The position numbers were made by a program, and so were the translations under genes. The notes beneath the pieces are model-generated. The model had not been told where the DNA came from, ran no database searches, and saw only the letters and a list, made by a program, of their open reading frames with translations. 43,255 nucleotides of DNA from Tannerella forsythia (lineage in GTDB: Bacteria; Bacteroidota; Bacteroidia; Bacteroidales; Tannerellaceae), in contig NZ_RQYN01000025.1 in NCBI RefSeq assembly GCF_003860135.1, forward strand, positions 1 to 43,255, read 5' to 3'. This document shows, in pieces, positions 13,619 to 28,473 of the stretch; the first letter of the stretch is position 1, and every line of letters starts with the position of its first letter.

Positions 13619-13749
13619 AGAACACTTATCAGCTTGCCTATCTCCTCCAACAAGCGTTTACAAATCAATGACCTACAATAAAATATTCGGAAAGTGTCCG
13701 CTAGGGAAAGACAATATAAAATGATCAGAATTGTGCACCTTACAATCTG

Positions 13750-14025
13750 ATGGTTTCTGCCGTATGGAAGAAAGAGGAGGAATTGCAGGAGCTGAAGAGA
13801 CAAGCCGCGGAGCTGGATCGCAAGATCGCCCTTTCGCTCAAAAAAGAGGACAACAGCGAAGTGAAACCGGAAGAAACGGTCGCTCCCGATGCGACCATCG
13901 CAGTCGATGCGCCCTTACGGGAGGAGCTAAAAAGGGAACGGTCTTCCGAGCGGAATCATACCGATTGGAAAGAAATACGGGAGGATGAAAAAATCAAACC
14001 CAGCATAAAGCCCGGAAGGTGGTGA
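13750..14025 (+). pseudogene. Remnant of a mobilization (relaxase-like) protein C-terminus
   Basis: A 91-codon frame encodes a highly charged, helical sequence: KKEEELQELKRQAAELDRKI, a short acidic linker and a basic end. The pattern resembles the C-terminal tail of Bacteroidetes mobilization/relaxase proteins as I remember them. No nuclease domain is present upstream; the 130 nt before it carry stops in this frame. It therefore looks like a leftover from an integrated or excised mobile element beside the accessory operon. The family link is uncertain; it may be an independent small coiled-coil protein. Confidence 0.4.
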
Positions 14026-14126
14026 GAAGAGCTTAGGTATTAAAAATCAGCCTGCTGTTTTCATATATGTGAGTCAACTCTACATTGGATTATTCAACAC
14101 GGACGATTTTTTTATGCTGTATTTTT

Positions 14127-14157
14127 TGCATCTCTTAAAATCTTTCTTACTTTTGCA
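14127..14157 (+). promoter_or_regulatory. Promoter of the tetR/dar operon
   Basis: TTTG (14127-14130), 19-nt spacer, TACTTTTG (14150-14157): an exact match to the Bacteroidetes -33/-7 layout. The predicted start of transcription falls in or just before the first operator palindrome (14165-14178), so a bound repressor would block it. Confidence 0.75.
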
Positions 14158-14164
14158 TCTGTAA

Positions 14165-14178
14165 ACCGACCGCTCGGT
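14165..14178. promoter_or_regulatory. TetR operator, copy 1
   Basis: ACCGACCGCTCGGT: 5-bp arms ACCGA/TCGGT around CCGC, in the form typical of TetR-family operators. It sits just downstream of the -7 element and 26 nt before the regulator ATG. Copy 2 (14820-14833) is its exact reverse complement. Confidence 0.8.
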
Positions 14179-14203
14179 CTTGTTTGCGACAAAGGATAAT
14201 GAT

Positions 14204-14800
14204 ATGAATGCAACAAAGAACTTTATTTTAGAAAAGTCGTTCGGCCTTTTTCTTCAAAAAGGCTATAATGGTGTTTCAATCAGAAATATCCAAGAAGAAA
14301 CCCGCTTATCAAAAGGGGCTATCTATCATCATTTCCAAGGCAAGGAAGAAATCTTTGCCAAAGCAATGGATTTGTTCTTTTTCCCGGCTCTCAGAAGTTT
14401 TCATTATTCTGATGATGAAACAAACACTCCATTGAAAAATGCACTTAATGAAGCTATTGAACATAGAAAAGGACATATTGATAAATTGCGGGAAATGACC
14501 GATTTCAAAGTTGATGACTTTTATTTTTTCAAGCTGGCCTTTCAGGTAGAAGAATTTTATCCGGATTTTAAGAGCAAAGTTGAAAATACATTTTCAGAAG
14601 AAGAAAATGAATGGAGAGAAGTGCTGCAAATGGCTGTTCAAAAGGGAGAAATCCGTAAAAATACGGATATTGATTTAACACTGTCTCTTCTTATGCTTAT
14701 CCCACGAGGATTGGGATTGAGTATGGCATTTTCTTCCGGTATTTCGACCGACTCACTGAAGGAGATATATGAAAAATTTTATCGGACATTGAAAGAATAA
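14204..14800 (+). CDS. TetR/AcrR-family transcriptional regulator
   Basis: From the ATG at 14204 the protein has 198 residues; an in-frame TTG start upstream would overlap the spacer behind the operator and is less likely. The N-terminal DNA-binding domain (about 5-55) has the TetR helix-turn-helix GVSIRNIQEETRLSKGAIYHHF. The remainder is a helical ligand-binding and dimerization domain of ordinary length. It is first in a same-strand run with the DarA/DarB-like genes and exporter, and operators lie on both sides of it. It probably represses itself and the operon until a hydrophobic effector, perhaps the product or its precursor, binds. The ligand is unknown. Confidence 0.93.
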   Translation: MNATKNFILEKSFGLFLQKGYNGVSIRNIQEETRLSKGAIYHHFQGKEEIFAKAMDLFFFPALRSFHYSDDETNTPLKNALNEAIEHRKGHIDKLREMTDFKVDDFYFFKLAFQVEEFYPDFKSKVENTFSEEENEWREVLQMAVQKGEIRKNTDIDLTLSLLMLIPRGLGLSMAFSSGISTDSLKEIYEKFYRTLKE

Positions 14801-14819
14801 TTTTTTTACTCCAATACAA

Positions 14820-14833
14820 ACCGAGCGGTCGGT
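14820..14833. promoter_or_regulatory. TetR operator, copy 2
   Basis: ACCGAGCGGTCGGT is the exact reverse complement of copy 1 and has the same AAACCGA flank. It lies between the tetR stop and the darA-like ATG (14 nt before it). No clear TAnnTTTG promoter is seen beside it, so it may control a weak promoter inside the 3' end of tetR or act as a roadblock to read-through. Confidence 0.78.
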
Positions 14834-14847
14834 ATCCTGCAAAGGAT

Positions 14848-15651
14848 ATGGAAAAAAGAAGGATACAAATAGTCTATTATTCGCAATCGGGTTCTTTGAA
14901 ATACTTGATAGAAGAATCGATGCGTCCTTATCTGGGAGATTACGTCCTTATCTGGAATCCCATTCATTGTGTGAAACCATTTCCTTTTCCTTGGAACAGG
15001 AAACGTTTCTTTAGTGTCTTCTGCGACTCTGTTTTACAGAAAGGATGCCGGATTGTATGCGACGAAATAAAGATTGAGAAAGATGATATGATTTTACTTG
15101 GTTTTCAGCCGTGGTTCCTTCATCTTTCATTACCCATACAGTCTTTCTTAAACTCTACGCAGTTCGGTCGGATCGTGAAAGATAGAGAAGTTATTCTCTT
15201 TACCTGCTATCGCAATACCGGAGCCATGGCAAGAAGACAAATGGCGGCGCATGTAGAAAGTCGTGGCGGGCATATAGTTGCCGAGCTGGAAATCTCGGAT
15301 CAATCCAAAGAGCGGTCAAGCGCTTTCCGATTTGTCAGATGGTTCTTTACAGGAAAGAATAACCCGTTTAGAAACATGGAAAAGCAGCAGGAAAAAGTTT
15401 GGAATGTTTTAGATGAAGTATTGCATAAGTCGAACCGAATCAGAATTCAATATCAAGAAAAACAACTTCTGAAAGAACAATATATACTTGGGAAATTTCA
15501 AAGATGGGCACATTTTATTCAGCCTGCAGACAAAATATATCGCTTTCGTTTATTGCTGTTTCAAATATGGATTTTAATGGCATTGATATTTGTTTCACCA
15601 ATCATGAACCGTATAATCAAATCAAAAAAAACAAAGAACAGTTATGAATGA
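14848..15651 (+). CDS. darA: DarA-like dialkylresorcinol condensing enzyme
   Basis: The 267-residue protein has a flavodoxin-like N-terminus (IVYYSQSGSLKYLIEE, residues 8-23) and features I recognise from DarA: a KPFPFPWNRKRFF segment, the ILLGFQPWFLHLSLPIQSFL core (about 90-110), a CYRNTGAMARRQM segment and RWFFTGKNNP. A single membrane segment lies near the C-terminus (about 232-252). In flexirubin and dialkylresorcinol pathways DarA works with DarB to condense two beta-keto acyl chains and make the resorcinol ring. It overlaps the darB-like start by 8 nt, which couples them. What is missing are the aryl-polyene genes usual in flexirubin clusters, so the acyl substrates must come from elsewhere. 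Confidence 0.82.
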   Translation: MEKRRIQIVYYSQSGSLKYLIEESMRPYLGDYVLIWNPIHCVKPFPFPWNRKRFFSVFCDSVLQKGCRIVCDEIKIEKDDMILLGFQPWFLHLSLPIQSFLNSTQFGRIVKDREVILFTCYRNTGAMARRQMAAHVESRGGHIVAELEISDQSKERSSAFRFVRWFFTGKNNPFRNMEKQQEKVWNVLDEVLHKSNRIRIQYQEKQLLKEQYILGKFQRWAHFIQPADKIYRFRLLLFQIWILMALIFVSPIMNRIIKSKKTKNSYE

Positions 15652-16774
15652 AGTCTTTATTACAAGAACATCTTCTTTCCTTCCTAACGAAGCCGTTGAG
15701 AATGACAACATGGAACAAATCCTGGGGATGGTCGGTGGTCATCCTTCCAGAGTCCGCAGTATCATTCTTCGTCAAAACGGGATTAAGAAACGCTATTATT
15801 CTCTTGACAGAGAGGGAAAGATTGTTTACACAAACGCAGAATTGACCGCTATTGCCGTAAACAAGTTATTCGATCAGGCTATTTCGTTTAAGGACATAGG
15901 TTTATTAGCCTGCGGAACGTCGCTTCCGGATCAACTTTTCCCATCACATGCCGTTATGACACATGGTCTTTTGGGGAATAAGCCGATAGATCTGCTTTCT
16001 CCTTCGGGTGTCTGTTGTGCGGGCATGAATGCTTTCAAACATGCTTATTTATCCGTTCTTTCCGGCATGTCTCAGAATGCCGTATCGACAGGCTCGGAAC
16101 TGGTCTCACCTGTACTTCGTGCCGATAATTTTGAAGAAGAATATAAAATGCTGAGTCTGGTCGAAGAAAAGCCGATTATTGCTTTTGAGAAAGACTTTCT
16201 CCGTTGGATGTTATCGGACGGTGCCGGAGCATTCTTATTCGAAAACAGATGCAGAGGAGATTTGTCTTTGAGAATCGATTGGCTCGAATCCATCTCTTAC
16301 GCAAATGAACTGGAGGTCTGCATGTATGCAGGAGCCATTTTCGAGAACGAGCGTTTCAAAAGCTGGAAAGAAGCCGATCCCCTGGAATGGGGACGAGAAT
16401 CTTATTTCGCTGTTAAACAGGATACGAGACTTCTCGGTGCCCATGTCATAGAAAAAGGAGTCGACTTCGTTTGTGAGAATCTTTGCAAACATGATATCGG
16501 CTTCAATGAAATAGACTATGTGCTTCCCCATATATCCTCAATGTACTTTTTCGATAAGTTGAAAAAAGGCTTTGAGATGAAAGGTTATCCGGTGGCGGAT
16601 GAACAATGGTTCCTCAATTTGCCTTATGTGGGAAATGTCGGGTCGGCTTCTATTTATTTAATGCTCGACGAATTATTCCATTCGGGTAAACTCAAGCAAG
16701 GGCACCGGGTTTTACTTATCGTACCCGAAAGTAGTCGATTCTCCTATTCAGTGGCGTTACTCACAGTTGTATAA
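15644..16774 (+). CDS. darB: DarB-like 3-oxoacyl-ACP synthase III
   Basis: The 376-residue ketosynthase is of the FabH/KAS III type. Candidate catalytic residues are Cys125 in SGVCCAGMNA, His296 in VLPHISSMYF and Asn331 in YVGNVGSASIYLM. Segments such as GHPSRVRSIILRQNGIKKRY, LRWMLSDGAGAF and SYANELEVCMYAGAI are characteristic of DarB of flexirubin and dialkylresorcinol clusters rather than housekeeping FabH. DarB elongates or transfers an acyl chain to form the beta-keto intermediate used by DarA. Its start lies within the end of darA (8-nt overlap) and the exporter gene follows after 23 nt. Confidence 0.85.
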   Translation: MNEVFITRTSSFLPNEAVENDNMEQILGMVGGHPSRVRSIILRQNGIKKRYYSLDREGKIVYTNAELTAIAVNKLFDQAISFKDIGLLACGTSLPDQLFPSHAVMTHGLLGNKPIDLLSPSGVCCAGMNAFKHAYLSVLSGMSQNAVSTGSELVSPVLRADNFEEEYKMLSLVEEKPIIAFEKDFLRWMLSDGAGAFLFENRCRGDLSLRIDWLESISYANELEVCMYAGAIFENERFKSWKEADPLEWGRESYFAVKQDTRLLGAHVIEKGVDFVCENLCKHDIGFNEIDYVLPHISSMYFFDKLKKGFEMKGYPVADEQWFLNLPYVGNVGSASIYLMLDELFHSGKLKQGHRVLLIVPESSRFSYSVALLTVV

Positions 16775-16797
16775 GTAAATTTCAAATTATATCGTAT

Positions 16798-19050
16798 ATG
16801 AACCGTATTGCAGAATTTATCGTCAAAAAACGTCTTGCCATCATTACGGCCGGCGTAGCAGTTACATTGATACTCGGCTATTTTTCGACCAAGCTGACCA
16901 TCAACTCCAATTTTATGTCCTACTTACCCGATGATGATCGGAAAGTTATGCTGTTTGAGCGAACGGACAGCTTATATGCCACAGGAAATATTATTGTAAT
17001 CGGGATAAGCAATACGGAAAATACCATTATAACGCCAGAAGGAATATCGGTTATACGGCAGGTTACCGACTCCGTCTCCGAAATAGAAGGAGTGGAGAAG
17101 GTAACCGGCCTGGCCAATGTAATCGATATCAGGCATCGTAACGACGGAGTGGAAATAGGCCGATTGATGGATGAAGAGATAATTTCCGACTCTTTACCCT
17201 CCTTACAGTCGTATATTTTGAATAAAGAGATGTATCGTGGCCGACTGTTGTCGGAAGACGGGCGAAGTACGGCAATCATTGTTTTTGTCGGAACAGCTGC
17301 CGACAAGGAAAAAGCTGCCCGGGAGGTAAATGACCTGCTTGATGAAGTCAGGCGATCGCATCCCGAATTAACTGTTTATTGCGACGGTTTGCCGATGCAG
17401 CAACAAAGCCTTACGGAATCAACGGAAAAGGATCTGATCCGGCTTGTTCCCCTTGTCTGCCTGCTGATTGCTCTTATTCTCGCATTGACACTGCATTCGT
17501 TGCGAGGCATATTCCTTCCGCTGCTTTCCGTGGCGATGGGCAGCATTTGGAGTATGGGGGCGATGGGACTGTTCCATGTTCAACTTTCTCCCATATCCGG
17601 CTCGATTCCGGTTGTCCTTTTTGCCGTAGGATCGGCTTACACAATACATGTTCTGAACTTTTTCAAATTGCTTGAAAACGGCGAAAATCATAAGGAAATC
17701 GTCGTAAGGGGAATAACGATTATAGGGGTTCCCGTAATGCTGGCCGGACTGACGACCATTGTCGGTTTCCTTTCATTTATTCCGGGAACATACCTGAGCA
17801 TCATTCGTGATTTCGGCATTTTTATGGCATTGGGTACATTCTTTTGCCTGCTTTTGTCACTCACCGTTATTCCGGCTGTCGAGTCCTATCTTCCACCCTT
17901 GAAACATCAGGAGAAAAAACAGAAGAAACACGTTCTTTCCGATGTTTTGCAATGGCTTGCCGGAGTTTCCATACACCGCAACAAAATGGTTCTTTACTGT
18001 GCCGGTGGCTTGATTCTTCTGATGGGAGCCGGCCTTTTCCGACTAAAAAGTAATATTGACGTACTCTATTATTTCCCAGAAAAGCATCCGTTAAGACAAT
18101 CCGCAGCCTTTCTCAACCGGGAATTCGGAGGAACCCTCCCAATTCAGATCAAGGTGACTGCTGACCTGACACGTCCCGAAACGCTGGCAGCCATGCAAGA
18201 TTTCGAAGATTTCCTTTCCGGACTTCCGCATGTGCATAATCCGCAATCGGTAACGGAGCTTATCAAAGAAATGAATCAGGCTATGGGGGAAGGCAAGCAA
18301 ATACCCGACACACAAGAGAAAATACAAAACCTCTGGTTCCTGCTCGAAGGAGAACCCGTAATGGAGCAGCTCTGCAATACCGACAAAAGTGAAGGCATGA
18401 TCCATGCTACCATGTGTAATGCACCGACCGGAGATTATCATGCGGTAAGCCGGAAAATCGACGAATATGCCGCCGCACATTCATCCGGTACGGTGCAATT
18501 CGAAACAACCGGATTGCCTTCCATCTATTCGAATTTTGACTATAATTTGATGCAGAATCTCTTCTGGAGTCTGCTGTTAGCCTGCGTATTGGTATTTATC
18601 TGTATGACATTTCTGGTCAAATCGCTTAAAAGCGCCCTTGTCGGATTTGTACCGCTTATGAGCGCCATCCTTTTCATCTTCGGACTGATGGGCTATCTCG
18701 GCATCGCCCTTAACCTCGCGACTGTGCTGATTGCCGGAGTTGCCGTAGGGATTGGGGTAGACTATTCCATCCACTTTATTTCCGGTTACCGAAATGCGCT
18801 CGTATCGGGGAAAGAATGTAATGAGGCTGTCATCCAAACACTTCAGACTTCCGGAAAGGGCATCCTGTTCAATGTAACGGCTGTTGCATTCGGTTTTCTG
18901 GTTTTGGTGTTTGCAGACCTCGTACCATTGAAAGAGTTCGGTCTGATCATGTTTGCCACCATGTTCGTATCCGGCTTGGCGGCAACTCTCCTCCTGCCTT
19001 CGATGATTCTATGTTTTCATATCAATCTTAATAAAACTCAGAAACAATGA
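16798..19050 (+). CDS. RND/MMPL-family exporter (HAE-3-like)
   Basis: The 750-residue protein has the repeat architecture of small RND exporters: a first membrane helix at about 13-31, a periplasmic loop, five helices at about 213-365, a second first-type helix at about 398-415, another loop, and five helices at about 584-745. The second half shows the family motif GVGVDYSIHFISGYR; the first half has a degenerate counterpart, VGSAYTIHVLNFF, that lacks the Asp. Relatives such as HpnN and mycobacterial MmpL move lipids or other hydrophobic compounds across the inner membrane. No separate MFP or TolC partner is encoded; the next genes give periplasmic and outer-membrane partners instead. Its stop overlaps the next start (ATGA). 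Confidence 0.92.
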   Translation: MNRIAEFIVKKRLAIITAGVAVTLILGYFSTKLTINSNFMSYLPDDDRKVMLFERTDSLYATGNIIVIGISNTENTIITPEGISVIRQVTDSVSEIEGVEKVTGLANVIDIRHRNDGVEIGRLMDEEIISDSLPSLQSYILNKEMYRGRLLSEDGRSTAIIVFVGTAADKEKAAREVNDLLDEVRRSHPELTVYCDGLPMQQQSLTESTEKDLIRLVPLVCLLIALILALTLHSLRGIFLPLLSVAMGSIWSMGAMGLFHVQLSPISGSIPVVLFAVGSAYTIHVLNFFKLLENGENHKEIVVRGITIIGVPVMLAGLTTIVGFLSFIPGTYLSIIRDFGIFMALGTFFCLLLSLTVIPAVESYLPPLKHQEKKQKKHVLSDVLQWLAGVSIHRNKMVLYCAGGLILLMGAGLFRLKSNIDVLYYFPEKHPLRQSAAFLNREFGGTLPIQIKVTADLTRPETLAAMQDFEDFLSGLPHVHNPQSVTELIKEMNQAMGEGKQIPDTQEKIQNLWFLLEGEPVMEQLCNTDKSEGMIHATMCNAPTGDYHAVSRKIDEYAAAHSSGTVQFETTGLPSIYSNFDYNLMQNLFWSLLLACVLVFICMTFLVKSLKSALVGFVPLMSAILFIFGLMGYLGIALNLATVLIAGVAVGIGVDYSIHFISGYRNALVSGKECNEAVIQTLQTSGKGILFNVTAVAFGFLVLVFADLVPLKEFGLIMFATMFVSGLAATLLLPSMILCFHINLNKTQKQ

Positions 19051-19781
19051 AAAAATTATCTTTCTTCTTCATGGCTGCCTTTCTGCTTTCGTATTCGGCA
19101 GCATTGGCTCAAAATGCCACAACCATTTTAGAAAAAGCAGACAGTGTGCTGAATGCACCTAAAGATGTGACAGCAACCAGCACGATGACAATCACTGCCA
19201 AAAACGGCAGTCGGAGTGTCCGCACCATGCAGGTCTTTCAGAAAGGAACCGACAAACGGTTGGTTCGGTTCCTCTCGCCTGCAGATCAGAAGGGCATCGC
19301 TTTTCTCTCGCTCCCCAACGACAATCAGATTCTTTATTTGCCGGCTTTCGGAAAAACGCGTCGGATAGCTTCGCACGTAAAGAACACCCGTTTTGCCGGA
19401 ACGGATTACACCTATGAAGATCTGGAGGCCAAACGTTATGCCGATAAATGGGATGCAGAACTGAAAAGTCGGTCAGCCGGCGAATACACATTGTCGCTTA
19501 CTCCGAAAAAGGGGGTCAAGACAGATTATGCCAAGATGGATATCCGGATAAAAGCGGATACCTATTTCCCCGTGGAAGTTGTTTTCTACAACAAGAAAGG
19601 AGTGGCTTCCAAACGGATGACCGTCTCGGAAATCTCCAATCACAAAGGTTTTCTTATTGCCAAAACATCTGAAATGAAAGACCTTTCAGGAGGCAGTTCG
19701 ACACAAACGCATCTTCAGCATGTGGAACTGAATACAGGCTTAAAAGACGATGTTTTCACCGAACGGAATCTGATGAAATAA
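19047..19781 (+). CDS. Periplasmic LolA-like lipid carrier
   Basis: The 244-residue protein has a signal peptide (MKKLSFFFMAAFLLSY…ALAQ) and the fold-level pattern of outer-membrane lipoprotein-sorting proteins (COG2834): repeated beta strands such as TMTITAKNGSRSVRTMQVF, DKRLVRFLSPADQKGIAFL and YFPVEVVFYNKKGVASKRM. The start codon overlaps the exporter stop (ATGA). LolA-like proteins encoded beside RND exporters of this type are believed to carry a hydrophobic cargo across the periplasm. Here the cargo would be the DarAB product. It is not LolA proper, which normally accompanies other lol genes. Confidence 0.82.
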   Translation: MKKLSFFFMAAFLLSYSAALAQNATTILEKADSVLNAPKDVTATSTMTITAKNGSRSVRTMQVFQKGTDKRLVRFLSPADQKGIAFLSLPNDNQILYLPAFGKTRRIASHVKNTRFAGTDYTYEDLEAKRYADKWDAELKSRSAGEYTLSLTPKKGVKTDYAKMDIRIKADTYFPVEVVFYNKKGVASKRMTVSEISNHKGFLIAKTSEMKDLSGGSSTQTHLQHVELNTGLKDDVFTERNLMK

Positions 19782-19792
19782 ACCATTGAACC

Positions 19793-21199
19793 ATGAGATT
19801 TCTTCTGTTTATCCTGATGGCATGTCTGACGATATTTGCCAAGGTGCACGCTCAAACCGTCGAAGATAAACCTTTCGAGCTGAATGGCAGTCTGCAACTC
19901 GATGACCGTATCCGCCTGAAAAGCGGAGGGCTTGACTGGCAGGAATACCGGATGAGCCTGCAACCCGTGTATAAGGTAAACGATAAGGCACGGCTCCATG
20001 CCGATATTTGGATTCGCAAACTTATCACAGCTTCACCTTTTGACCAACCGGTCGAGAATGTACAGCTTCGAGAGGCATACGTCGATTTATACGGCTTTTT
20101 AAGTGAGCATATCGATGTCCGTATCGGCCGACAGCGCATTGCCTGGGGAACGGCCGACCGGCTCAACCCTTCGGATAATATCAACCCTTGGGAGCTGGAG
20201 GACTTTTGGGATTTCGGACGGCATACACCTACCAATAGTCTTCTTGCCAAATACTATTGGAATGGGTTCACACTTACGGCTGTATTCACGCCCCGGTTTT
20301 CTCCATCCTTACTTCCCGACCAAAGTTGGAAAGCAGCGTTTATGCCTGAAGTTCCCGATCGCTGGCAAATTCCGTTACCAGACGGGACGATGACGGATAT
20401 ATGGCTTCAGCCTCTTTCTGTTTCCCGGATGGAAAATCTGCCCGAACGGAAACTGAAAGCATCGACTTATGCCGTCAAAATAGCCCGGGATATACGTAAT
20501 TATACCGTTTCGTTCGGATGGTTGCGCCAATATGCACCGATTCCGGTATTGACCCGTTTATCCGTTCAGGGAAAAATAACGAGCCTGCCCACTTCCCCTG
20601 ATATGCCTGTTCCGATGAATACGACGGTCGATGCAATGCTCTCATACTCGTTGCGCAACGTCGTGAGTGCCGATTTGTCCGGTTCCCTCGGAAGTGTGGG
20701 CGTATGGGGAGAGGCGGCTTTATTTATTCCTGAAAAAACGATACTCACGCGTTCGGTCTCTATAGAAAGTCCTATGGGAACATTTAATCCGGTTCTTCCC
20801 GACAGTACAATCTTTGACGGCAATCCGTATTTGAAATATACACTCGGATTCGATTACACTTTTCCGGCTAATATCTATCTGAATGTACAATACGTACATG
20901 GGTTCTTTCACGAGGAAGGGAGGAAGAACCTGACCGACTGGCTGGCGTGGACATGCGAATGGAAATCGGCCGATGAAAAACTGAAATTATCATTGTTGAA
21001 CGGAGCTTTTCAGGTTGCCGATTTCAATAACCTCAAAGAAGGGTGTACATTGTTCTGGTTGCCGGAGCTTTCGTATAAGCCGGTCGACAATGTCGAACTC
21101 AAGGCCGGTGCACACTGCATCTTCACCGGAAAAGATGCTCCGTTTTACCCCATAAGAAAAAACGGAGATGCGTATCTGAAAGTGAAATACTCGTTTTAG
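19793..21199 (+). CDS. Outer-membrane beta-barrel, DUF1302-like
   Basis: The 468-residue protein has a signal peptide (cleavage probably after KVHAQ) and alternating amphipathic strands to a C-terminal Phe (…LKVKYSF), as in outer-membrane barrels. The segment VRIGRQRIAWGTADRLNPSDNI with NPWELEDF matches the hallmark of DUF1302-type barrels, which in other phyla are encoded with RND exporters and LolA/DUF1329-like periplasmic proteins. It lies 11 nt after the LolA-like gene and completes an inner membrane-periplasm-outer membrane route. Whether it forms an exit channel or receives lipid into the outer leaflet is unknown. Confidence 0.75.
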   Translation: MRFLLFILMACLTIFAKVHAQTVEDKPFELNGSLQLDDRIRLKSGGLDWQEYRMSLQPVYKVNDKARLHADIWIRKLITASPFDQPVENVQLREAYVDLYGFLSEHIDVRIGRQRIAWGTADRLNPSDNINPWELEDFWDFGRHTPTNSLLAKYYWNGFTLTAVFTPRFSPSLLPDQSWKAAFMPEVPDRWQIPLPDGTMTDIWLQPLSVSRMENLPERKLKASTYAVKIARDIRNYTVSFGWLRQYAPIPVLTRLSVQGKITSLPTSPDMPVPMNTTVDAMLSYSLRNVVSADLSGSLGSVGVWGEAALFIPEKTILTRSVSIESPMGTFNPVLPDSTIFDGNPYLKYTLGFDYTFPANIYLNVQYVHGFFHEEGRKNLTDWLAWTCEWKSADEKLKLSLLNGAFQVADFNNLKEGCTLFWLPELSYKPVDNVELKAGAHCIFTGKDAPFYPIRKNGDAYLKVKYSF

Positions 21200-21240
21200 G
21201 AACAATCAGAAAGGAGCACTTATATCGTATCGGTTCCTGA

Positions 21241-21303
21241 TAAGATTTTGGTAACTGCCGGATTCAAAAGATTACAAGAGGAAAAAATTGAGAAAATTGC
21301 TGA
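21241..21303 (+). pseudogene. Fragment of the HAD phosphatase gene
   Basis: Encodes KILVTAGFKRLQEEK… and is nearly identical in DNA to the middle of the HAD gene at 22767-22830. It lacks the extra G that breaks the downstream copy but has one additional A in an A-run (six A against five), which changes the frame after EEK. It is a partial duplicate left beside repeat copy A. Confidence 0.75.
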
Positions 21304-21304
21304 G

Positions 21305-21465
21305 ACGATATTTTACAAAGAACAGGGACGAGCCTGCCATTTTGCCGGAGACGACGTATTGTTCCGGTTAGGACGACCCTCCGTCTGTTTTAGGTCGTCC
21401 TAATCGCTCCGTTAGGTCGACCTAAATGGCCGGTTAGGTCGACCTGACTTTCTGTCAGGGTCGGC
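21305..21465. repeat. 161-bp repeat, copy A, with phased palindromes
   Basis: Nearly identical to 23537-23697 (5 substitutions by my count, no gaps). Its second half has four palindromic units of the form TTAGG.CG.CCTAA, starting at 21368, 21390, 21412 and 21433, i.e. every 21-22 bp, about two helical turns. The first and last units are degenerate on one side. Confidence 0.9.
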
Positions 21466-21540
21466 CGTAAGTGAAGCAGATAACGGCAGAGATATCTTCC
21501 GTAGGTGCTTTCGGTGCTTATTACGGCAACTGCGACGTGT

Positions 21541-21837
21541 ATGGATCCTATGGAGATTCAGGAAGGGAAAAACCTGATCGCATATTGCCGGGAAAAACAA
21601 CAGGAGGCTCTGGTATTCTTTATCAACCTGTATTTTAACGATAGTCGCGAGACTGCCACCAAGGCAGTGTCCCACTATATGTTTTGCGTAATATTTTCAG
21701 AATATGGTGCAGAAATCGAGGCGATAAAAAATGATTGGAGACGTAATCAGTACAATCAAAAGGGAGCTTATATCGCACCGGTTCCAGAAATGTTCGTGAA
21801 GAAGTTCGCAAAAAGATTGTTTAATAAATTATTATAG
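21541..21837 (+). CDS. Hypothetical protein, 98 residues
   Basis: I do not recognise the family. From the ATG at 21541 the protein is 98 residues, helical, with basic residues at the end (KKFAKRLFNKLL) and no signal peptide or membrane segment. An upstream GTG in frame would add 12 residues and is less likely. The stop codon overlaps the Shine-Dalgarno sequence of the lipoprotein gene, so the two are coupled. A damaged copy of its tail lies at about 21210-21240, showing that it belonged to a duplicated unit. Confidence 0.6.
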   Translation: MDPMEIQEGKNLIAYCREKQQEALVFFINLYFNDSRETATKAVSHYMFCVIFSEYGAEIEAIKNDWRRNQYNQKGAYIAPVPEMFVKKFAKRLFNKLL

Positions 21838-21841
21838 GAGG
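21836..21841 (+). promoter_or_regulatory. Strong Shine-Dalgarno sequence of the lipoprotein gene
   Basis: AGGAGG, 6 nt before the ATG at 21848. Most genes in this window have no such site, so it stands out and supports this start. Confidence 0.8.
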
Positions 21842-21847
21842 AATTGT

Positions 21848-22375
21848 ATGATGAAAAAAATGTATGTATTTATTTTATGTCTGATCGTTTTCGCCGGCTG
21901 CAGCCAAACGGACAATGAACCGATTACCGAAGGGAAATCTTTGATAACGGCCGTCACAAGGAGCGGCAATGTGGAAGGGATCGTCTCGGAATATGAAACA
22001 GCATCCGATGATGAATCACAATATGGTTCGATTTCTGCAAGGCTCGCTTTCACGGGAGACGATATCGAATGGTTCAATCCGAGAACACGGGAAATTAGAT
22101 TCAGAAAGATCAACTCTATTCCGGTCTACGCACGAATAGAGATGAAGGTAGGGGAAGAAACGGTCTTTACGATTGTTGCTCATATAAGTCATGTTGTCAA
22201 CCGGGCGTACAACAATCTTGTGTTATTTTATGACATGGAGAAGAATGCCTATTTCCTGAACGATAATTGGCCGGATTATTGGGACCCGGAGGGTACTCGC
22301 CGGAATGCGGAGAAAAGAGCTCCCGGATGGGCTAAATTCCTGAATCAATTGAAGAAGGAAGGCAAACTCAAATGA
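21848..22375 (+). CDS. Small putative lipoprotein, unknown function
   Basis: The 175-residue protein has a lipoprotein signal peptide with lipobox VFAGC (Cys about residue 18), then a single globular region with beta-rich segments (INSIPVYARIEMKVGEETVF) and an aromatic, charged end (NDNWPDYWDPEG…). No family is recognised. It follows the 98-residue gene directly with a strong ribosome binding site and ends just before a good terminator, so the two form a small unit. Location would be the periplasmic face of a membrane or the cell surface. Confidence 0.75.
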   Translation: MMKKMYVFILCLIVFAGCSQTDNEPITEGKSLITAVTRSGNVEGIVSEYETASDDESQYGSISARLAFTGDDIEWFNPRTREIRFRKINSIPVYARIEMKVGEETVFTIVAHISHVVNRAYNNLVLFYDMEKNAYFLNDNWPDYWDPEGTRRNAEKRAPGWAKFLNQLKKEGKLK

Positions 22376-22394
22376 TTTAGTCATTTTCCTGTAG

Positions 22395-22435
22395 AGAGAG
22401 GATGCGGCTCCCTTGCATCCTCTCTTATTTTATTG
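22395..22435 (+). terminator. Intrinsic terminator after the lipoprotein gene
   Basis: Stem AGAGAGGATGC (22395-22405) pairs perfectly with GCATCCTCTCT (22415-22425), 9-nt loop, followed by the T-rich tract TATTTTATT. Confidence 0.9.
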
Positions 22436-22457
22436 AAGCATTAACACAAAGAACAAG

Positions 22458-23127
22458 ATGCAGGATCAGGTTATCATTTGCGACTTGGACAACACGATAT
22501 TCGATACTTCGAGCATCGATCCCGAATTGTTTGCGTCGTTGCTTCACAAAGCAACCGAGTATTTATCAGGACGCTTTACCGCGGAAATCATCCTCTCGAT
22601 CATTCAAGACATCGTATCCAATCCGTTCGACAGGGTATGCGAGAAATACGGATTGCCCAAATCAATGATATTACCTGTTTTGGATGAATTGAATGGTATC
22701 TCTCTGGAGCATTCTGCCATGGTGCCGTATGAGGACTATGCCGCTTTCAGAGCGATACCGGCATATAAGATTGTTGGTAACAGCCGGATTCAAAAGATTA
22801 CAAGAGGAAAAATTGAGAAAACTGCAGATAAGTCAAGACTTCGACCGGATAATCATCAACGATCCCGTCTATGCGAATTCGAGCAAACTGGATATCTTCC
22901 GTGAATTAAGCAGGGAATTGGACCTAAAAGACCAAAAGACGTATGTGGTAGGCGATGATCCCGCTTCCGAAATAAAAGCAGGACGGGAGTTGGGATTTAC
23001 AACCGTCCTGATGGTCAGAAAGGAATACCTTTCCAACCCCTACACCGATTATATTGTCTCCTCTTTCGAGGGTTTGAAAGACCTTTTGAGAGATAATATG
23101 GAAAACGATTGCGCCCTTAGGAAGTAG
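22458..23127 (+). pseudogene. HAD-family hydrolase broken by a one-base insertion
   Basis: The first frame (from 22458) has HAD motif I, VIICDLDNTIFDT, and continues to FRAIPAYKI. The second frame resumes with LVTAGFKRLQEEKLRKLQ and reaches motif IV, YVVGDDPASEIKAGRELG. The break is at 22773: the DNA reads AAGATTGTTGGTA where the fragment at 21241 reads AAGATTTTGGTA, so one G is extra. Joined, the product would be about 222 residues, a normal small HAD phosphatase; the substrate is unknown. It is either a pseudogene or an assembly error. It follows a terminator and has no clear promoter. Confidence 0.85.
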
Positions 23128-23146
23128 AATATTTTGCAAAAACTTT

Positions 23147-23377
23147 CTACTTACTCGTTGTGCCGATACTTCGGAATCGCTGCTGTAATTCTTTAATGCG
23201 AAGCAAAAGTTGTCCGAAAGAAATTTTGTTTCCGTAAATAAAAGATTCCTGTAAAGCAGCATAGTCGTTCTCCCAATCCTTTATACATTCTACAGGAGGA
23301 TAGAACTCTATTTTGTCCGGATAATCTTTATCACAGTCAGCATAGAGAACCGAACTTAAAAGACCGAAAAGCGTATA
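23147..23377 (-). pseudogene. Possible C-terminal relic of an AbiEii/AbiGii-type toxin
   Basis: A minus-strand frame without a start codon ends at TAG (23147-23149) and reads …KIEFYPPVECIKDW, ENDYAALQESFIYG, NKISFGQLLLRIKEL… The DY..MQE..IYG…SF…L pattern resembles the C-terminal end of AbiEii/AbiGii nucleotidyltransferase toxins. A stop (23378-23380) and AT-rich DNA precede it and no antitoxin gene is seen. The family assignment is from memory and moderate. Confidence 0.45.
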
Positions 23378-23536: not shown

Positions 23537-23697
23537 ACGATATTTTACAAAGAACAAGGACGAGCCTGCCATTTTGCCGGAGACGACGTATCGTTCCGGT
23601 TAGGACGACCCTCCGTCTGCTTTAGGTCGTCCTAATCGCTCTGTTAGGTCGTCCTAAATGGCCGGTTAGGTCGACCTGACTTTCTGTCAGGGTCGGC
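23537..23697. repeat. 161-bp repeat, copy B
   Basis: Same length and almost the same sequence as copy A (21305-21465), in direct orientation about 2.2 kb downstream. One palindrome unit has AGGTCGTCCT where copy A has AGGTCGACCT. It ends 9 nt from the stop codon of menE. Confidence 0.9.
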
Positions 23698-23706
23698 ATG
23701 GGTGGT

Positions 23707-24792
23707 TTATTGTCTCGTAGTGTGCAGATCAGAAGGGGGGTAAGAGTCGATATTCTTTCGGGAACGGATAAGTTTTCCGGATTTCGTCCTCGGAATGCGT
23801 TCCCTATATATAATCTCCCGGGGGATGGCATGACGGGGCAACAGTCTCCTGAAAACCGCATCCATCTTCCTGCGCTTTTCCGGCGACCACTCCATATCCT
23901 CCACCACCATAACGATACGTTCCCCGAGACGTTTATCGGGCAGAGAACCGATATAAAAAGGGACTTTCATCTCCCGGAAAACGAGGTCTTCCAATTCCTC
24001 GGGGGAAAATTTGATCCCCCCGCTATTGATTACGTAATCCAAACGCCCTTTCCACACGAAATGCCTCTCATCTACGAGCTCTACCATGTCCCGGGTGCAA
24101 AACTCCGATTCCCGAATATGGGGAGCATATATGCAAAGACATCCGGATTCGTCCCGGCGGAAACGCACTCCTTCCAAAGCCTCGAAACAAGCGGAAGCTC
24201 CCTCTCCGTTCAATCGCATAAGAGCCGTATGGGATGCCGTTTCCGTCATTCCGTAAGTAGCGAAAAAACGGGTGGGAATATCCGCCAACCGCTCTCTCGT
24301 AGTCCGTGCCAGGGGGCCTCCTCCTATCAAAAGATTTTCCACCTTTTCGAACCGGTGGTATTCCCCCGAAGACAGGATGTCCTCCACTTGCAGGGGTACG
24401 AGCGCTCCGAGTTTGACCTTCGTATGCAGGGAGGAAAGAGGCAAAGAAGAGGGAGGTTCCGGCAACAGAACGGCCCCTGCTTCGAATGCCCTCACCACCA
24501 TCATTTTACCGGCTATATAAGAAAGCGGAAGAGAGAGCATCAGTACGGAATCCCGGGATATGTCGAAAAAAGCATTGGTCAGCCGTGCCGAAGCCGCCAT
24601 CGCTTTTTTAGGCAGACGGATAAGCTTGGGCATACCCGTAGAGCCGGAAGTACGCACCTCTATAAAATCCCGGGAATCGCACCATTCCGACACGAATGCA
24701 CGCAATGCGGATTTCCACGGAACATCATCTCCCAAGGCTCCGGCGGCTATCTCCCGCAAACCGAAATACCTGTCCTCATACAGAATTTTCAT
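23707..24792 (-). CDS. menE: o-Succinylbenzoate-CoA ligase
   Basis: The ATG at 24792 lies 22 nt after the menC stop with a purine-rich GGAAAGGGGGG upstream; a longer frame would run back into menC. The 361-residue protein is an AMP-forming acyl-CoA synthetase with the ATP-binding motif TSGSTGMPK, a middle motif ATYGMTETASH, the adenylate motif VWKGRLDYVINSGGIKFSPEE and a C-terminal PRTKSGKLIR with the catalytic Lys. It is shorter than usual because the N-terminal part is reduced, as in other Bacteroidales MenE. It activates OSB for MenB and is last in the men operon. Confidence 0.93.
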   Translation of the reverse strand: MKILYEDRYFGLREIAAGALGDDVPWKSALRAFVSEWCDSRDFIEVRTSGSTGMPKLIRLPKKAMAASARLTNAFFDISRDSVLMLSLPLSYIAGKMMVVRAFEAGAVLLPEPPSSLPLSSLHTKVKLGALVPLQVEDILSSGEYHRFEKVENLLIGGGPLARTTRERLADIPTRFFATYGMTETASHTALMRLNGEGASACFEALEGVRFRRDESGCLCIYAPHIRESEFCTRDMVELVDERHFVWKGRLDYVINSGGIKFSPEELEDLVFREMKVPFYIGSLPDKRLGERIVMVVEDMEWSPEKRRKMDAVFRRLLPRHAIPREIIYRERIPRTKSGKLIRSRKNIDSYPPSDLHTTRQ

Positions 24793-24814
24793 AAGCCCCC
24801 CTTTCCATATCCGT

Positions 24815-25885
24815 TTACAATCCCCCGTTCCCGTATTTTTCCCGGAACAAGGCCTCGACACCGCAACGGGAAGGTCTCTTCCCTGCGGCATATCTCAAAT
24901 AACCGCCTTCCGTATAAAGAGGCGCATCCGTATTATTCGTAAACAAAGCGCCCGTACCCAATCCCTGAGGCAGGGGATTCCCATGAATATAGGTCCACTG
25001 GGCAATGGCATTCAGGCCTATATTCGACTCCAAAGCGGAAGTGATCCACCATGCTATCCCCATGGATTCGGCAATCCTTATCCATTGTTCCGTGCCGTAA
25101 AAACCTCCGACAAGCGAAGGCTTGAGTACGATACAGGCCGGACGGATATAAGCTAACATCTCCCGTTTGGAAGTTTCATCGTATAAGCCTATCAATTCCT
25201 CATCCAAGGCCACGGCAACAGGGGCATTCGCAGCAATCCTGCGCATAGCCCCGTAATTCCCGGCCCTGACGGGCTGCTCCACCGAATGGATGCCGAAGGC
25301 GGATAAACGTTCCAATTTATACATAGCCTCCTCCTCTTCGAAAGCCCCGTTCGCATCGAGACGGATAACGGCATCCTTCCCGAATTTCTCCCGGACCATC
25401 CGTACCAAAGCGAGTTCCGATTCGAAATCGATAGCCCCGATTTTAAGTTTTATACAGCAAAAACCCTCCTCCCGTTTCTCCTCCACACGCCTTCGCATAG
25501 CTTCGAAGCTCCCCATCCATATCAAACCGTTTATGGGAATCCCCGCCTCGCCGGAAGTGAAAGCCGAGGGAAAAAGCAATCCCCCGCCCTCGAAGTCGGC
25601 AAGCGCCGTTTCCATCCCGAAACACAAAGAAGGATATGCCTGCCAGGCGTCGGGAGTAAACCCGCAAACGCCGTTGCAAACCTCCGCCAGCCGCTCTTCG
25701 TAATCCGCTCCCTCTTCCGCACTCAATCCCCGGAATAAAGCCGCCTCGCCGTAACCTGCCCGAGAGGGGAAAGCATCGTCGTATACCCTCACGAAATAAG
25801 TCTGCCTGGTATGCAAAACGCCCCGCGACGTCCCTGCCGGCTCCTTGAATTTCAAGGTATAGGGGATATAATCGGCCTTAAGCAT
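24815..25885 (-). CDS. menC: o-Succinylbenzoate synthase
   Basis: The ATG at 25883-25885 overlaps the menB stop by one base (TGATG); a TTG just upstream is in frame but less likely. The 356-residue enolase-superfamily enzyme has the catalytic lysine motif IKLKIG, metal ligands in RLDANGAF, SVEQPV and ALDEEL, and a later lysine in CIVLKPSLVGG. It dehydrates SHCHC to OSB. The tight overlap on one side and 22 nt on the other fit one operon. Confidence 0.95.
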   Translation of the reverse strand: MLKADYIPYTLKFKEPAGTSRGVLHTRQTYFVRVYDDAFPSRAGYGEAALFRGLSAEEGADYEERLAEVCNGVCGFTPDAWQAYPSLCFGMETALADFEGGGLLFPSAFTSGEAGIPINGLIWMGSFEAMRRRVEEKREEGFCCIKLKIGAIDFESELALVRMVREKFGKDAVIRLDANGAFEEEEAMYKLERLSAFGIHSVEQPVRAGNYGAMRRIAANAPVAVALDEELIGLYDETSKREMLAYIRPACIVLKPSLVGGFYGTEQWIRIAESMGIAWWITSALESNIGLNAIAQWTYIHGNPLPQGLGTGALFTNNTDAPLYTEGGYLRYAAGKRPSRCGVEALFREKYGNGGL

Positions 25886-26709
25886 CAACCCGGGAATTTA
25901 GGGAACTTGTCGAAATCCGGAGTCCGTTTTTCCAAAAAGGCATTTTTCCCCTCCTGAGCTTCTTCCATAAGATAATACATAAGGGTAGCATCCCCTGCAA
26001 ACTCCATCAATCCTCTCTGGCCGTCGAGCTCCGCATTCAAAGCCCGTTTAATCATCCGGATCGCCATCGGACTCCGGCTCAATATCGTCTTGCACCAGTC
26101 CACCGTTTCGTCCTCCAACCTCGCGGCAGGTACCACCTTGTTTACCATCCCCATAGCTTCGGCCTCCGCAGCGGTATACTGACGGCATAAAAACCAGATC
26201 TCCCTCGTCTTCTTCTGACCTACACAACGGGCAAGATAAGAAGAACCGAAACCTCCGTCGAAACTCCCGACCTTGGGGCCGGTCTGTCCGAAACGGGCAT
26301 GCTCGGCCGCTATCGTCAAATCGCATACCACATGAAGCACATGCCCTCCTCCTATGGCATAACCGTTGACCATGGCAATGACGGGCTTGGGCAGAGAACG
26401 GATGGCCTTATGCACATCCAATACATTCAATCGGGGAACTCCTCCTCCGTCGATATACCCTCCCATCCCTTTCACATGCTGATCTCCTCCCGAACAAAAA
26501 GCCTTATCGCCGGCTCCGGTCAAAACGACTACGCCTATATCCGGACGCTCCCTGCATATATCCATGGCATCCAGAATTTCGGCATTCGTCTGCGGCCGGA
26601 AAGCATTATAAACCTTAGGCCGGTTGATGGTTATCTTGGCTATTCCCTCGAAATACTCGAATAAAATATCCTCGTATTTCTTTATTTCCTTCCATTCTCT
26701 CATATTCAT
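25885..26709 (-). CDS. menB: 1,4-dihydroxy-2-naphthoyl-CoA synthase
   Basis: The 274-residue crotonase-family protein has [11 protein letters not shown], the [16 protein letters not shown] oxyanion-hole region, [21 protein letters not shown] and the C-terminal [11 protein letters not shown] that is diagnostic of MenB. It closes the second ring of the naphthoquinone from OSB-CoA. It starts 18 nt after the menD stop. Confidence 0.97.
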
Positions 26710-26727
26710 CTGTTTTAATTGTAAGTT

Positions 26728-28464
26728 CTATCGGTTTACGGGGTAAGACTCCCCCGAAATATATGTAAAATACGATTTCAATACAGGGGCGTTTTCAAAC
26801 CTCGGCGTTTCCACCTCGAGCAGGACCGCCTTGTCGCCGGATGCGAAAAACGAAGGTAACACCGTTTCCAGTTCTTCGGCGGAAGCGGCCTTCATATATC
26901 TCCATCCGTAAGCTCCGGCCATTTCCCTTACGGGAACTTCGAGCGGAGTCTCGAAACAGGTCTCCAATTCCTTCAAAGAATCCGGCCCGGGAATAAAACG
27001 GAATATCCCCCCTCCTCCGTTACGCATCACGATCACCCGTATCCGCCCGTTTACATAAGGCATCCACAAAGCATTGGAATCGTACATAAAACTCAGATCT
27101 CCCGTAATCAAAAGGGTGGTCCCGGAATATACTTCGGAAAACCCCATTGCCGTGGAAGTGGCCCCCTCGATTCCGTTGGTTCCGCGATTGCTCCATTCTC
27201 CTCCCGCATAATGCGTGTGTTCGAATAATTGGAGATAACGTACGGGCGTGGAATTAGCCGCATGCAAAGCAGCATCATGGGGAATATGCCTTAAAATCAC
27301 TTCGAAAGCCTTGAGGTCGCTCCATCCCGCATCCGCCATAAAGGTACGGTGCAGAAGGTCTGCCTTCCGTTTTATCTTCTGCCACGAACCGGCATAGGAA
27401 ACTCCTTCCGGTGAGAGGGAGTCCGGTGCCTTGTCTTTCAACCGTCCGGCGAATTCCTTCCAAAAGCCCGAAGCTCCCGTACATATATGATGGGTAAGCG
27501 CACAGAAAGTGTCCGGAGCCGGAAACCTCTCGTCTATCCCCCAATGCTCCGCAGGTTTCGCCCTCCGTAAAAAAGTTTTCAACATACGGGAAACCAATGA
27601 GCCTCCGAAAGAAATAAGGAGTTCCGGATAAAGCGATTCGTCTTCTCCGGCTGCAGCCAATACCCGGTCTACCGTACATATCCCCGTATCCGTACGGATA
27701 TTGGAGAGACTCTCGGCAAACAAAACCGTATGGGGAAATTTGCATATATCCCGCAATGCGACGGACACGTCTTCGTCGGGAGGATAAAAACCGGCGACGA
27801 TCATCACCCTGGGAGCTTCCAAAAACCGCCTTACGAGCATATCCCATACCTCTTCCGGCAATTCTTGCCGTTCCCTAACCAACGTTATCGCCCGCTCTTT
27901 TCCGGAATATCCGGAGGAAGTCCCGTATAGCGGTTCGCAAAACGACATATTGATGTGCACGGGTCCTCGCCGGGGCATCAGGGCATGGTTCAACACCTCA
28001 TTCAAACGACGATTGGCATACCATGCCGAGGCGGAAGTATCGAATTCCGCTCTCAAGCTGCAATACGACTTAACGAAACCGGCCATAGCTCCCTCCTGTC
28101 GAATCGTCTGTCCCTCGTCCTGGTCGATCCATTCGGCCGGACGGTCGGCCGTCACCGCAACCAAAGGAATCCCCCTGTAAAAAGCCTCGGCAACGGCAGG
28201 AGCATAATTCAACATGGCCGTACCGGAAGTACAAACCAATCCTACGGCTTCACCCGAGGCCAAAGCCAATCCGAGAGCGAAAAAACCGGCGGAACGCTCA
28301 TCCGCGATCACGTATTTCTCGAAAGCGGGATTCCGGGAGAAAGAAAACAAAAGAGGAGCATTTCGCGAACCGGGCGACATAACGAGTTTACGTATGCCCT
28401 TCATCTCGAATAAATCCATCAATACGCTTACGCCTTTCTTATCCGAATAATCCGAATCCATCAT
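26728..28464 (-). CDS. menD: SEPHCHC synthase
   Basis: The 578-residue ThDP-dependent enzyme opens with the MenD region (VMSPGSRNAPLLFSF) and has the CTSGTAMLNYAPAVAEA motif, the cofactor-binding GDLSFMYDSNAL region and an N-GGGGIFRFIPG segment. It joins isochorismate with 2-oxoglutarate after decarboxylation. Two adjacent ATG codons (28464 and 28461) are possible starts; the menF stop is 10 nt upstream. Confidence 0.97.
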   Translation of the reverse strand: MMDSDYSDKKGVSVLMDLFEMKGIRKLVMSPGSRNAPLLFSFSRNPAFEKYVIADERSAGFFALGLALASGEAVGLVCTSGTAMLNYAPAVAEAFYRGIPLVAVTADRPAEWIDQDEGQTIRQEGAMAGFVKSYCSLRAEFDTSASAWYANRRLNEVLNHALMPRRGPVHINMSFCEPLYGTSSGYSGKERAITLVRERQELPEEVWDMLVRRFLEAPRVMIVAGFYPPDEDVSVALRDICKFPHTVLFAESLSNIRTDTGICTVDRVLAAAGEDESLYPELLISFGGSLVSRMLKTFLRRAKPAEHWGIDERFPAPDTFCALTHHICTGASGFWKEFAGRLKDKAPDSLSPEGVSYAGSWQKIKRKADLLHRTFMADAGWSDLKAFEVILRHIPHDAALHAANSTPVRYLQLFEHTHYAGGEWSNRGTNGIEGATSTAMGFSEVYSGTTLLITGDLSFMYDSNALWMPYVNGRIRVIVMRNGGGGIFRFIPGPDSLKELETCFETPLEVPVREMAGAYGWRYMKAASAEELETVLPSFFASGDKAVLLEVETPRFENAPVLKSYFTYISGESYPVNR

Positions 28465-28473
28465 CTTGCATTA

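Follow-up and report, generated by a model that had tools for sequence, protein, structure and literature searches.

A probable mobile TetR-DarAB unit joined to a borrowed envelope exporter in Tannerella forsythia

Introduction

Why would two genes of the dialkylresorcinol (DAR) type sit in a short operon between a transcriptional regulator and an envelope exporter? The question is raised by a 43,255-nucleotide stretch of Tannerella forsythia DNA (contig NZ_RQYN01000025.1; the window), in which six consecutive plus-strand genes encode, in order, a TetR-family regulator, a DarA-like protein, DarB, an MMPL/RND exporter, a LolA-like carrier and a DUF1302-like barrel. With moderate confidence, we read this locus as a mobile TetR-DarAB unit that would make a dialkyl-cyclohexanedione or a resorcinol under TetR control, and to which a borrowed exporter of the envelope has been added. 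A sequence-only reading had proposed a resorcinol-like lipid with its own export route; horizontal transfer, TetR-DarB relatives and a second DAR locus were absent from it.

Results

Gene order and coding status

The run is compact. A 47-nt gap between tetR and darA is its largest; darA and darB overlap by 8 nt, darB and the MMPL gene are 23 nt apart, the MMPL gene and lolA overlap by 4 nt, and 11 nt separate lolA from the barrel gene.

14204..14800, plus strand: TetR-family regulator, grouping with DarB-linked TetRs (family models, tree, leave-one-out profiles)
14848..15651, plus strand: divergent DarA, possibly flavodoxin-like, probable aromatase, with a hydrophobic C-terminal stretch judged by eye (homology, alignment)
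15644..16774, plus strand: DarB ketosynthase/cyclase with Cys124, His296 and Asn331 (family models, StlD structure, alignment, tree)
16798..19050, plus strand: MMPL/RND exporter, HAE3-like (NCBIfam and Pfam scores, orthologs)
19047..19781, plus strand: LolA-like periplasmic carrier, PF17131 (Pfam)
19793..21199, plus strand: DUF1302-like outer-membrane barrel with a C-terminal Phe (Pfam, aligned relatives)

All six frames are open, and their proteins are 98.1-99.6% identical to counterparts in Porphyromonas loveana DSM 28520; the gene order is therefore not a product of chance. The genes are as the sequence-only reading had described them, overlaps and short gaps included. Across seven compared genes (the operon and a small lipoprotein gene behind it), 50 synonymous and 29 nonsynonymous changes separate the window from P. 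loveana (nonsynonymous-to-synonymous ratio pN/pS 0.17; P 6e-15 against neutral), changes that may be older than the transfer described below. DarB and the MMPL protein were each significantly constrained when taken alone.

Transfer of the block

The operon lies within a larger block shared with P. loveana.

13749..23345, no strand assigned: horizontally acquired block, 98-99% identical to a P. loveana conjugative-element region, with loss and rearrangement after the barrel gene (blastn)
13749..14025, plus strand: 3' remnant of a 2393-aa methylase/helicase gene at the left junction, 97.8% identical (blastn)
21492..21837, plus strand: remaining part of a DUF7689 lipoprotein gene (809 aa), which P. 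loveana has in full (comparison with P. loveana)
21848..22375, plus strand: small lipoprotein, judged by eye, 97% to P. loveana (open reading frame, homology)
23147..23345, minus strand: 3' remnant of an AbiEii gene at the right junction, start approximate (comparison with P. loveana)

At the DNA level, window positions 13749-21208 and 21549-23345 matched P. loveana DSM 28520 at 98-99% (blastn), whereas fabF, which adjoins the block, is 72-73% identical. This difference indicates, by sequence comparison, that the block was recently transferred between two different bacteria. The P. loveana operon stands behind TopB (slightly under its NCBIfam cut-off) and the methylase/helicase gene; TraN, TraM, TraK, TraG, MobB and MobC, all over their cut-offs, lie farther upstream. 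DarA was found in one of the 38 genomes of that species' family, P. loveana itself; no match of about 98% to the window locus occurred among the 123 genomes surveyed of the window's own family, and none of 72,556 plasmid records matched the block at the DNA level. The fabF divergence and the lack of a match near 98% within the window's own family suggest that the two organisms belong to different families. In a close relative (G078), rnc is followed 0.7 kb on by the sequence of window position 29730, and the block and the genes behind it are absent at that site. We consider the window locus a probable remnant of conjugative-element cargo.

Further observations concern the downstream part. A 161-bp direct repeat (21305-21465 and 23537-23697; 97% identical) flanks the lipoprotein and HAD remnants. 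The HAD-hydrolase gene is split into two frames (22458-23127), is whole in P. loveana (222 aa; L054), and has a piece duplicated at 21248-21286. Behind the block, positions 23707-29607 hold a menaquinone-type set (chorismate-binding, thiamine pyrophosphate (TPP), enoyl-CoA hydratase, enolase-like and AMP-binding enzymes) that is absent there in G078.

DarB and its regulator group with TetR-DarB pairs

On sequence evidence, the family assignment of DarB is secure and beyond doubt. The protein scored 527.1 bits against the NCBIfam StlD/DarB subfamily model NF005293 (cut-off 450) and 548.3 bits against the DarB exception model NF053539, 1.7 under a cut-off of 550 that the genome's own canonical DarB2 (542.9) also fails to reach. 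StlD (5gk0) is the closest solved structure (E 4.6e-109), and Cys124, His296 and Asn331 align with StlD and with 11 other sequences, which bears out the proposed KAS III with intact Cys/His/Asn.

A GTDB contig protein search with DarB returned three loci, one of which, P. loveana DSM 28520, is 99% identical. In a tree of 73 DarB rows, some of them one gene from two overlapping loci so that independent genes are fewer, the window and P. loveana proteins grouped with five TetR-linked DarBs and that of L035 (support 97/83), far from the DarB2 of the window's genome. The tree was built without partial or stop-broken DarBs (G122, G024, G083:C196 and others with fewer than 300 aligned residues). At L035 (G112:C237), DarA and DarB adjoin a divergent AraC-type gene and outer-membrane efflux, HlyD-type and ABC-2 genes, a DarAB pair with a different kind of exporter.

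The regulator was placed in the same company. In a tree of 41 TetRs it grouped with four DarB-linked TetRs (three from plasmids and that of G122; support 99/100) and was separated from the 36 TetRs of exporter loci, the majority of which, though not all, lie in the same run as the pump. In leave-one-out profiles it scored 139.1 bits against the DarB-linked set versus 52.9 against the exporter-locus set. Tree and scores together led us to reject the candidate that this TetR is the exporter cassette's own regulator.

A tblastn search of plasmids with DarB gave 22 records, four of them from Bacteroidales at 45-48% identity. Each of the three that were opened (Phocaeicola, Bacteroides and Prevotella) has a TetR or helix-turn-helix (HTH) gene directly before DarB, as well as annotated relaxase, Mob or Tra genes; the fourth (B. 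faecis, H4) is known from its match listing alone. Besides these four plasmids, TetR and DarB genes were found linked in the window, P. loveana, G122, G287 and G311; the G311 pair has a tyrosine-recombinase-like gene next to it. Five relatives have TetR-DarB with no gene labelled as exporter or DAR in the sequence read, which in one case spans only 3.6 kb. DarA is retained in three of eight TetR-linked DarB loci, two of the three being near-identical, and was absent by tblastn at E 1e-5 from two whole plasmids and three further TetR-DarB stretches. Because the window genes share descent with such pairs, three of which are on Bacteroidales plasmids with transfer genes, the TetR-DarB core most likely represents a regulator and a synthase that are spread together by mobile DNA.

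At E 1e-12 a profile of the TetR found matches in 72 of the 393 genomes, and 30 loci were read with about 1.5 kb on each side, some of them cut. That DarB stands as a rule beside TetRs of the window type was rejected on these loci (3 of 30). A second such TetR in the window's genome (L283, G000:C182, 6702-7322) has no adjoining DarB, and its next gene (269 aa) has no Pfam match.

Repeats were noted on two of the plasmids. On pBACSA01, a 31-bp sequence (30/31 identical) lies upstream of tetR-darB, 172-202 bp before the tetR start, and again just before the tra operon. It was found post hoc, as one of 19 listed repeat pairs of at least 24 bp on that plasmid, and its core gave three loose matches in the B. 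ovatus plasmid versus 5.07 expected; as a pointer to transfer control it is a lead only. The B. ovatus plasmid has a repeat of about 150 bp before tetR-darB (L291, 13175-13326), with six near-full-length copies and one partial copy elsewhere; one copy lies just before a coupling-protein gene.

Promoter and palindromes

14125..14155, plus strand: Bacteroides-type promoter TTTG-N19-TACTTTTG (pattern match, just before palindrome 1)
14163..14180, no strand assigned: palindrome 1, core ACCGACCGCTCGGT, a predicted and probable TetR operator just after the tetR promoter
14818..14835, no strand assigned: palindrome 2, core ACCGAGCGGTCGGT, a predicted and probable TetR operator in the tetR-darA gap

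The pattern TTTG-N19-TACTTTTG, which we take to be the Bacteroides-type promoter consensus, has two full matches on the plus strand of the window versus 0.58 expected from mononucleotide shuffles, which is weak when considered alone. The palindromes share a motif, ACCGASCGSTCGGT, found twice in the window, at 14165-14178 and at 14820-14833; shuffled sequence would yield 0.01 when one mismatch is tolerated. The 3.3-Mb genome has no further exact copy, two copies that differ at one position, and one site on each strand for the reversed control pattern. In most regions scanned, the window's included, the best palindrome was at the level of shuffles; what stands out is the matching pair. Both cores are retained in P. 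loveana and occur in no other fetched locus, apart from those overlapping the window or P. loveana.

Since the palindromes sit after the tetR promoter and in the tetR-darA gap, with their cores kept in P. loveana, a TetR that represses itself and the operon fits the arrangement. The TetR control claimed earlier is thereby supported, at the level of sequence, in both the tetR and the darA leader. A tetR-leader palindrome common to the window and the TetR-DarB plasmids was also considered and rejected; the alignment held none, and a Prevotella site, ACGGAACAAACGTTCTGT, is alike in position only.

A divergent DarA

The sequence-only reading had suggested a search with DarA and DarB profiles. DarB passes its subfamily cut-off, as given above, but library scans of the window DarA matched no family model at E 0.01. 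Its identity instead comes from homology to DarB-adjacent proteins in relatives (E 7e-21 to the genome's own DarA2 and 8e-31 to that of G122). A profile of 28 aligned DarAs gave a weak flavoprotein match among solved structures (2mwm, putative trp repressor binding protein; E 6.7e-5, positions 1-105). Weak Flavodoxin_4 and Flavodoxin_1 matches were present in five and two of the 28 members, respectively, and in none for the window protein. This is likely a divergent DarA that acts as an aromatase rather than as a condensing enzyme. Of the earlier claim of a DarA-like flavodoxin-fold condensing enzyme, the DarA homology holds, but the condensing role is not supported, as the table in PMC3949708 labels DarA the DAR-aromatase and DarB the DAR-cyclase.

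A second DAR locus in the same genome

DarB2, 49% identical to the window DarB, is encoded elsewhere in the genome (G000:C1) in the order radical-SAM/B12 gene, DarA2, DarB2, DarG, DarH, ABC ATPase and permease. DarG and DarH scored 128.1 bits (DarG_fam, cut-off 70) and 398.5 bits (cut-off 300). Among the 123 genomes of the family, DarB matches were found in 31 (five of them weak, E 1e-4 to 1e-3) and DarA matches in 24, the window's own included, and DarA-B-G-H-ABC was the usual order in the loci read. As the genome holds this ordinary locus, that of the window is an additional copy. Between positions 11.5 and 26 kb of the window, DarG, DarH and ABC genes are absent, and none of the operon genes and scanned neighbours (fabF, rnc and downstream to 29.6 kb) is a polyene-forming gene, a search confined to these genes within the genome. 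The sequence-only reading was thus right that accessory genes are missing at the locus, but this does not extend to the genome.

The exporter is a separate cassette

The MMPL protein scored 152.4 bits against Pfam MMPL (cut-off 20.5), and the LolA-like protein 160.4 bits against LolA_like PF17131 (cut-off 30). The barrel reached 20.4 bits for DUF1302, under the cut-off of 23.2, yet 28 of 31 aligned barrels match DUF1302 at E 0.001; a sequence search of the barrel against solved structures gave zero matches.

A search of 393 genomes of the order gave orthologs of the window MMPL protein at 33-43% identity among the matches listed. We surveyed the 53 best-scoring MMPL places listed, excluding the window and leaving out three more distant ones (L206-L208). 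The same run contained a LolA gene in 49 of the 53, a TetR gene in 30, a barrel gene in 26 and all three in 23; DarA or DarB was found in none (tblastn, E 1e-10). Lipid-type genes occur in the run of 13 (acyltransferase, patatin, glycosyltransferase family 2 (GT2), short-chain dehydrogenase/reductase (SDR), and KAS III with acyl carrier protein (ACP)), often in the interval from TetR to pump or from LolA to barrel. For these labels, ten proteins were scanned against Pfam and the remainder were labelled by BLAST to those ten. L197 (G296:C536, 2102-7372) has TetR, KAS III, ACP, MMPL and acyltransferase genes in one run, a cassette with a different lipid-making pair. The window's genome has a second TetR-MMPL-LolA-barrel cassette without Dar genes (L100, G000:C114, 5609-11784), where an undescribed 199-aa protein precedes the barrel.

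Among the MMPL matches listed, the window shares its contig with a DarA place, and otherwise only G404:C9 does so, at 470 kb distance. The exporter is missing from 46 of 48 Dar loci; many contigs are cut or end inside the region, gene picking misses some overlapping genes (e.g. the DarA of L037), and absences here are lower bounds. Conservation of the exporter trio with DarAB was accordingly rejected: both occur together in two of the 48 Dar loci (the window and P. loveana) and in none of the 53 exporter loci. Because the two full-set loci are 99% alike, the combination has no independent conservation. The sequence-only reading held that regular occurrence of the exporter without the enzymes, and of the enzymes without the exporter, would speak against a joint system, and this was observed both ways (53 of 53 and 46 of 48 loci). 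With each found without the other, the pairing is a special combination in two near-identical copies and not a conserved system. What survives of the export claim is that the run includes an envelope exporter of a kind that, at 13 of its 53 related loci, is accompanied by lipid-type genes. We take the exporter to have been borrowed from a separate, order-wide cassette, probably for lipid export.

Comparison with known systems

The DarA and DarB core is that of darABC in Pseudomonas chlororaphis and Photorhabdus and of the Azoarcus dar locus (DarA, DarB, BtrH-like, ABC). These loci make dialkylresorcinols and are compact, with a few to about a dozen genes, and the earlier statement that DarA and DarB sit in large clusters is not supported by the compact dar loci described in PMC3949708 and PMC6403133. 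In P. chlororaphis, resorcinol was missing from darA or darB mutants and reduced in darC mutants (PMC6403133). Earlier work cited in PMC3992019 obtained dialkylresorcinol from darA and darB of Chitinophaga pinensis in a heterologous host, so that a short gene list is not in itself surprising. Compared with the known loci, the window locus lacks ACP, DarG, DarH and ABC genes, has the RND/LolA/barrel exporter and a mobile-element context, and is accompanied by a TetR, whereas the regulators described for them are AraC-type or LuxR-type.

Flexirubin and arcuflavin (aryl polyene) clusters likewise combine DarAB with a LolA protein and a predicted exporter (PMC3992019, PMC3949708), the flexirubin pigment being located in the outer membrane (PMC3992019). 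In contrast, the window has no polyene genes among the scanned neighbours, and its exporter comes from another cassette, with a DUF1302-like barrel. The nearest characterised relative of this exporter is AmeABCD of Castellaniella defragrans, which comprises an HAE3-type RND pump, a DUF1302 outer-membrane protein, a DUF1329 LolA-superfamily periplasmic protein and AmeC. It was proposed to export monoterpenes after a deletion mutant had been examined for tolerance and with Nile Red (PMC6394551). The window operon differs in having no AmeC gene, PF17131 in place of DUF1329, and a link to DarAB rather than to monoterpene metabolism. In Photorhabdus asymbiotica (DarABC/PauR), cyclohexanediones (CHDs) are DAR intermediates that are themselves sensed by PauR, and the compound class serves as a signal with a LuxR-type receptor (PMC4414361), where the window has a TetR. 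Our literature search, with subscription papers mostly outside its scope, found no account of TetR-DarB pairs or of the window gene set.

Discussion

We propose that DarB would join two fatty-acid-derived beta-keto thioesters to a 2,5-dialkyl-cyclohexane-1,3-dione, which the divergent DarA may aromatise to a resorcinol. The MMPL/RND pump, the LolA-like carrier and the DUF1302-like barrel could then carry the product through the envelope, having been added to the TetR-DarB core from the widespread lipid-export cassette. TetR would bind the two palindromic operators and repress itself and the operon, and the ligand that releases it is most likely the product or a precursor. The earlier claim of a resorcinol-like lipid with its own export route is thus partly supported, by DarB, the DarA-like partner, the TetR palindromes and an exporter in the same run, but not in the condensing role of DarA or in a conserved pairing.

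Several observations weigh against this proposal. PLSDB typed all three opened plasmids as non-mobilizable despite their annotated relaxase, Mob or Tra genes, and the G287 pair is found close to an IS66 transposase, on a contig of chromosome size. DarB adjoins only three of the 30 TetR-profile loci (the window, G287 and G311), and the G311 TetR, at 129-130 bits, falls under several DarB-less TetRs (up to 176-178), one of which belongs to the window's own genome. For the TetR tree, the tool warned of long branches meeting. The ACCGASCGSTCGGT pattern was derived from the two sites themselves, each of which alone is at the level of shuffles. The MMPL protein missed the curated HAE3 model TIGR00921 (244.8 bits, cut-off 351.9), the full gene set is known from two loci that are 99% alike, and the block is decaying downstream. 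As for DarA, it is 21-30% identical to the 28 aligned DarAs, shows no significant constraint alone (four synonymous and six nonsynonymous changes; P 0.12), and departs from motifs kept by at least 90% of them, with FCDS for FPES, RNTG for RNMW and an alignment gap at P..AG.

These last features are what one would expect if DarA were inactive and the unit yielded a cyclohexanedione only, as the DarA-less TetR-DarB pairs would. CHDs being themselves sensed by PauR (PMC4414361) also suits this variant, which is compatible with our preferred explanation. The full-length frame, the retained N-terminal YYSQSG loop and the retention of DarA in three of the eight TetR-linked loci, two of them near-identical, speak for a working enzyme, and we regard loss of DarA activity as a distinct possibility that is nonetheless the less probable state of the unit. 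One could also ask whether the whole locus is a piece of conjugative element that was left behind, no longer works and is heading for loss, given the genes truncated at both junctions, the deleted DUF7689 gene and the split HAD gene. The six operon genes are open, however, and when pooled with the next gene they carry many fewer nonsynonymous changes than neutrality would give, although the changes may have arisen before the transfer; with both palindrome cores also retained in P. loveana, a dead fragment seems very improbable.

Other alternatives turn on the exporter. TetR feedback on efflux genes is common, and the product could be, as the sequence-only reading implied, a structural or secreted outer-membrane lipid, one for which TetR provides metabolic feedback only, with no cell-cell signal. 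Such a lipid fits the 13 exporter loci, of 53, that hold lipid-type genes, and the flexirubin clusters with their LolA, exporter and outer-membrane pigment (PMC3992019). Against it, the TetR resembles DarB-linked TetRs and not those of exporter loci, and the five relatives have TetR-DarB with no neighbour labelled as exporter or DAR over the stretch read; we hold it to be fairly unlikely. That the pump is instead an AmeABCD-like detoxification system, sharing the operon by chance and no substrate with DarAB, would accord with the monoterpene export proposed in C. defragrans (PMC6394551) and with the absence of Dar genes from all 53 cassette loci. It appears improbable with DarAB placed between regulator and pump, joined by a 23-nt gap and overlaps behind the same palindromes.

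Under the preferred reading of a mobile TetR-DarAB unit with a borrowed exporter, a signalling role of the DarAB product is a plausible inference, in view of the grouping of regulator and synthase and their mobile settings. A bolder version would make TetR-DarB a signalling system of Bacteroidales conjugative elements, in which TetR reads the DarB product (a dialkyl-cyclohexanedione, or a resorcinol where DarA is present), the element or its host thereby gauges the number of neighbours already carrying it, and the window version has gained an export route. This version is speculative, and we consider it unlikely as a whole.

Little is known, as far as we are aware, of how Bacteroidales signal chemically or of how the conjugative elements common among them are controlled. 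A regulator that accompanies a signal-class ketosynthase, both on plasmids from three genera and in integrated form, is a concrete and testable candidate, comprising in the window two defined palindromes, one enzyme pair and one exporter. The locus also suggests a more general rule, by which an envelope lipid-export cassette may receive different lipid-making genes.

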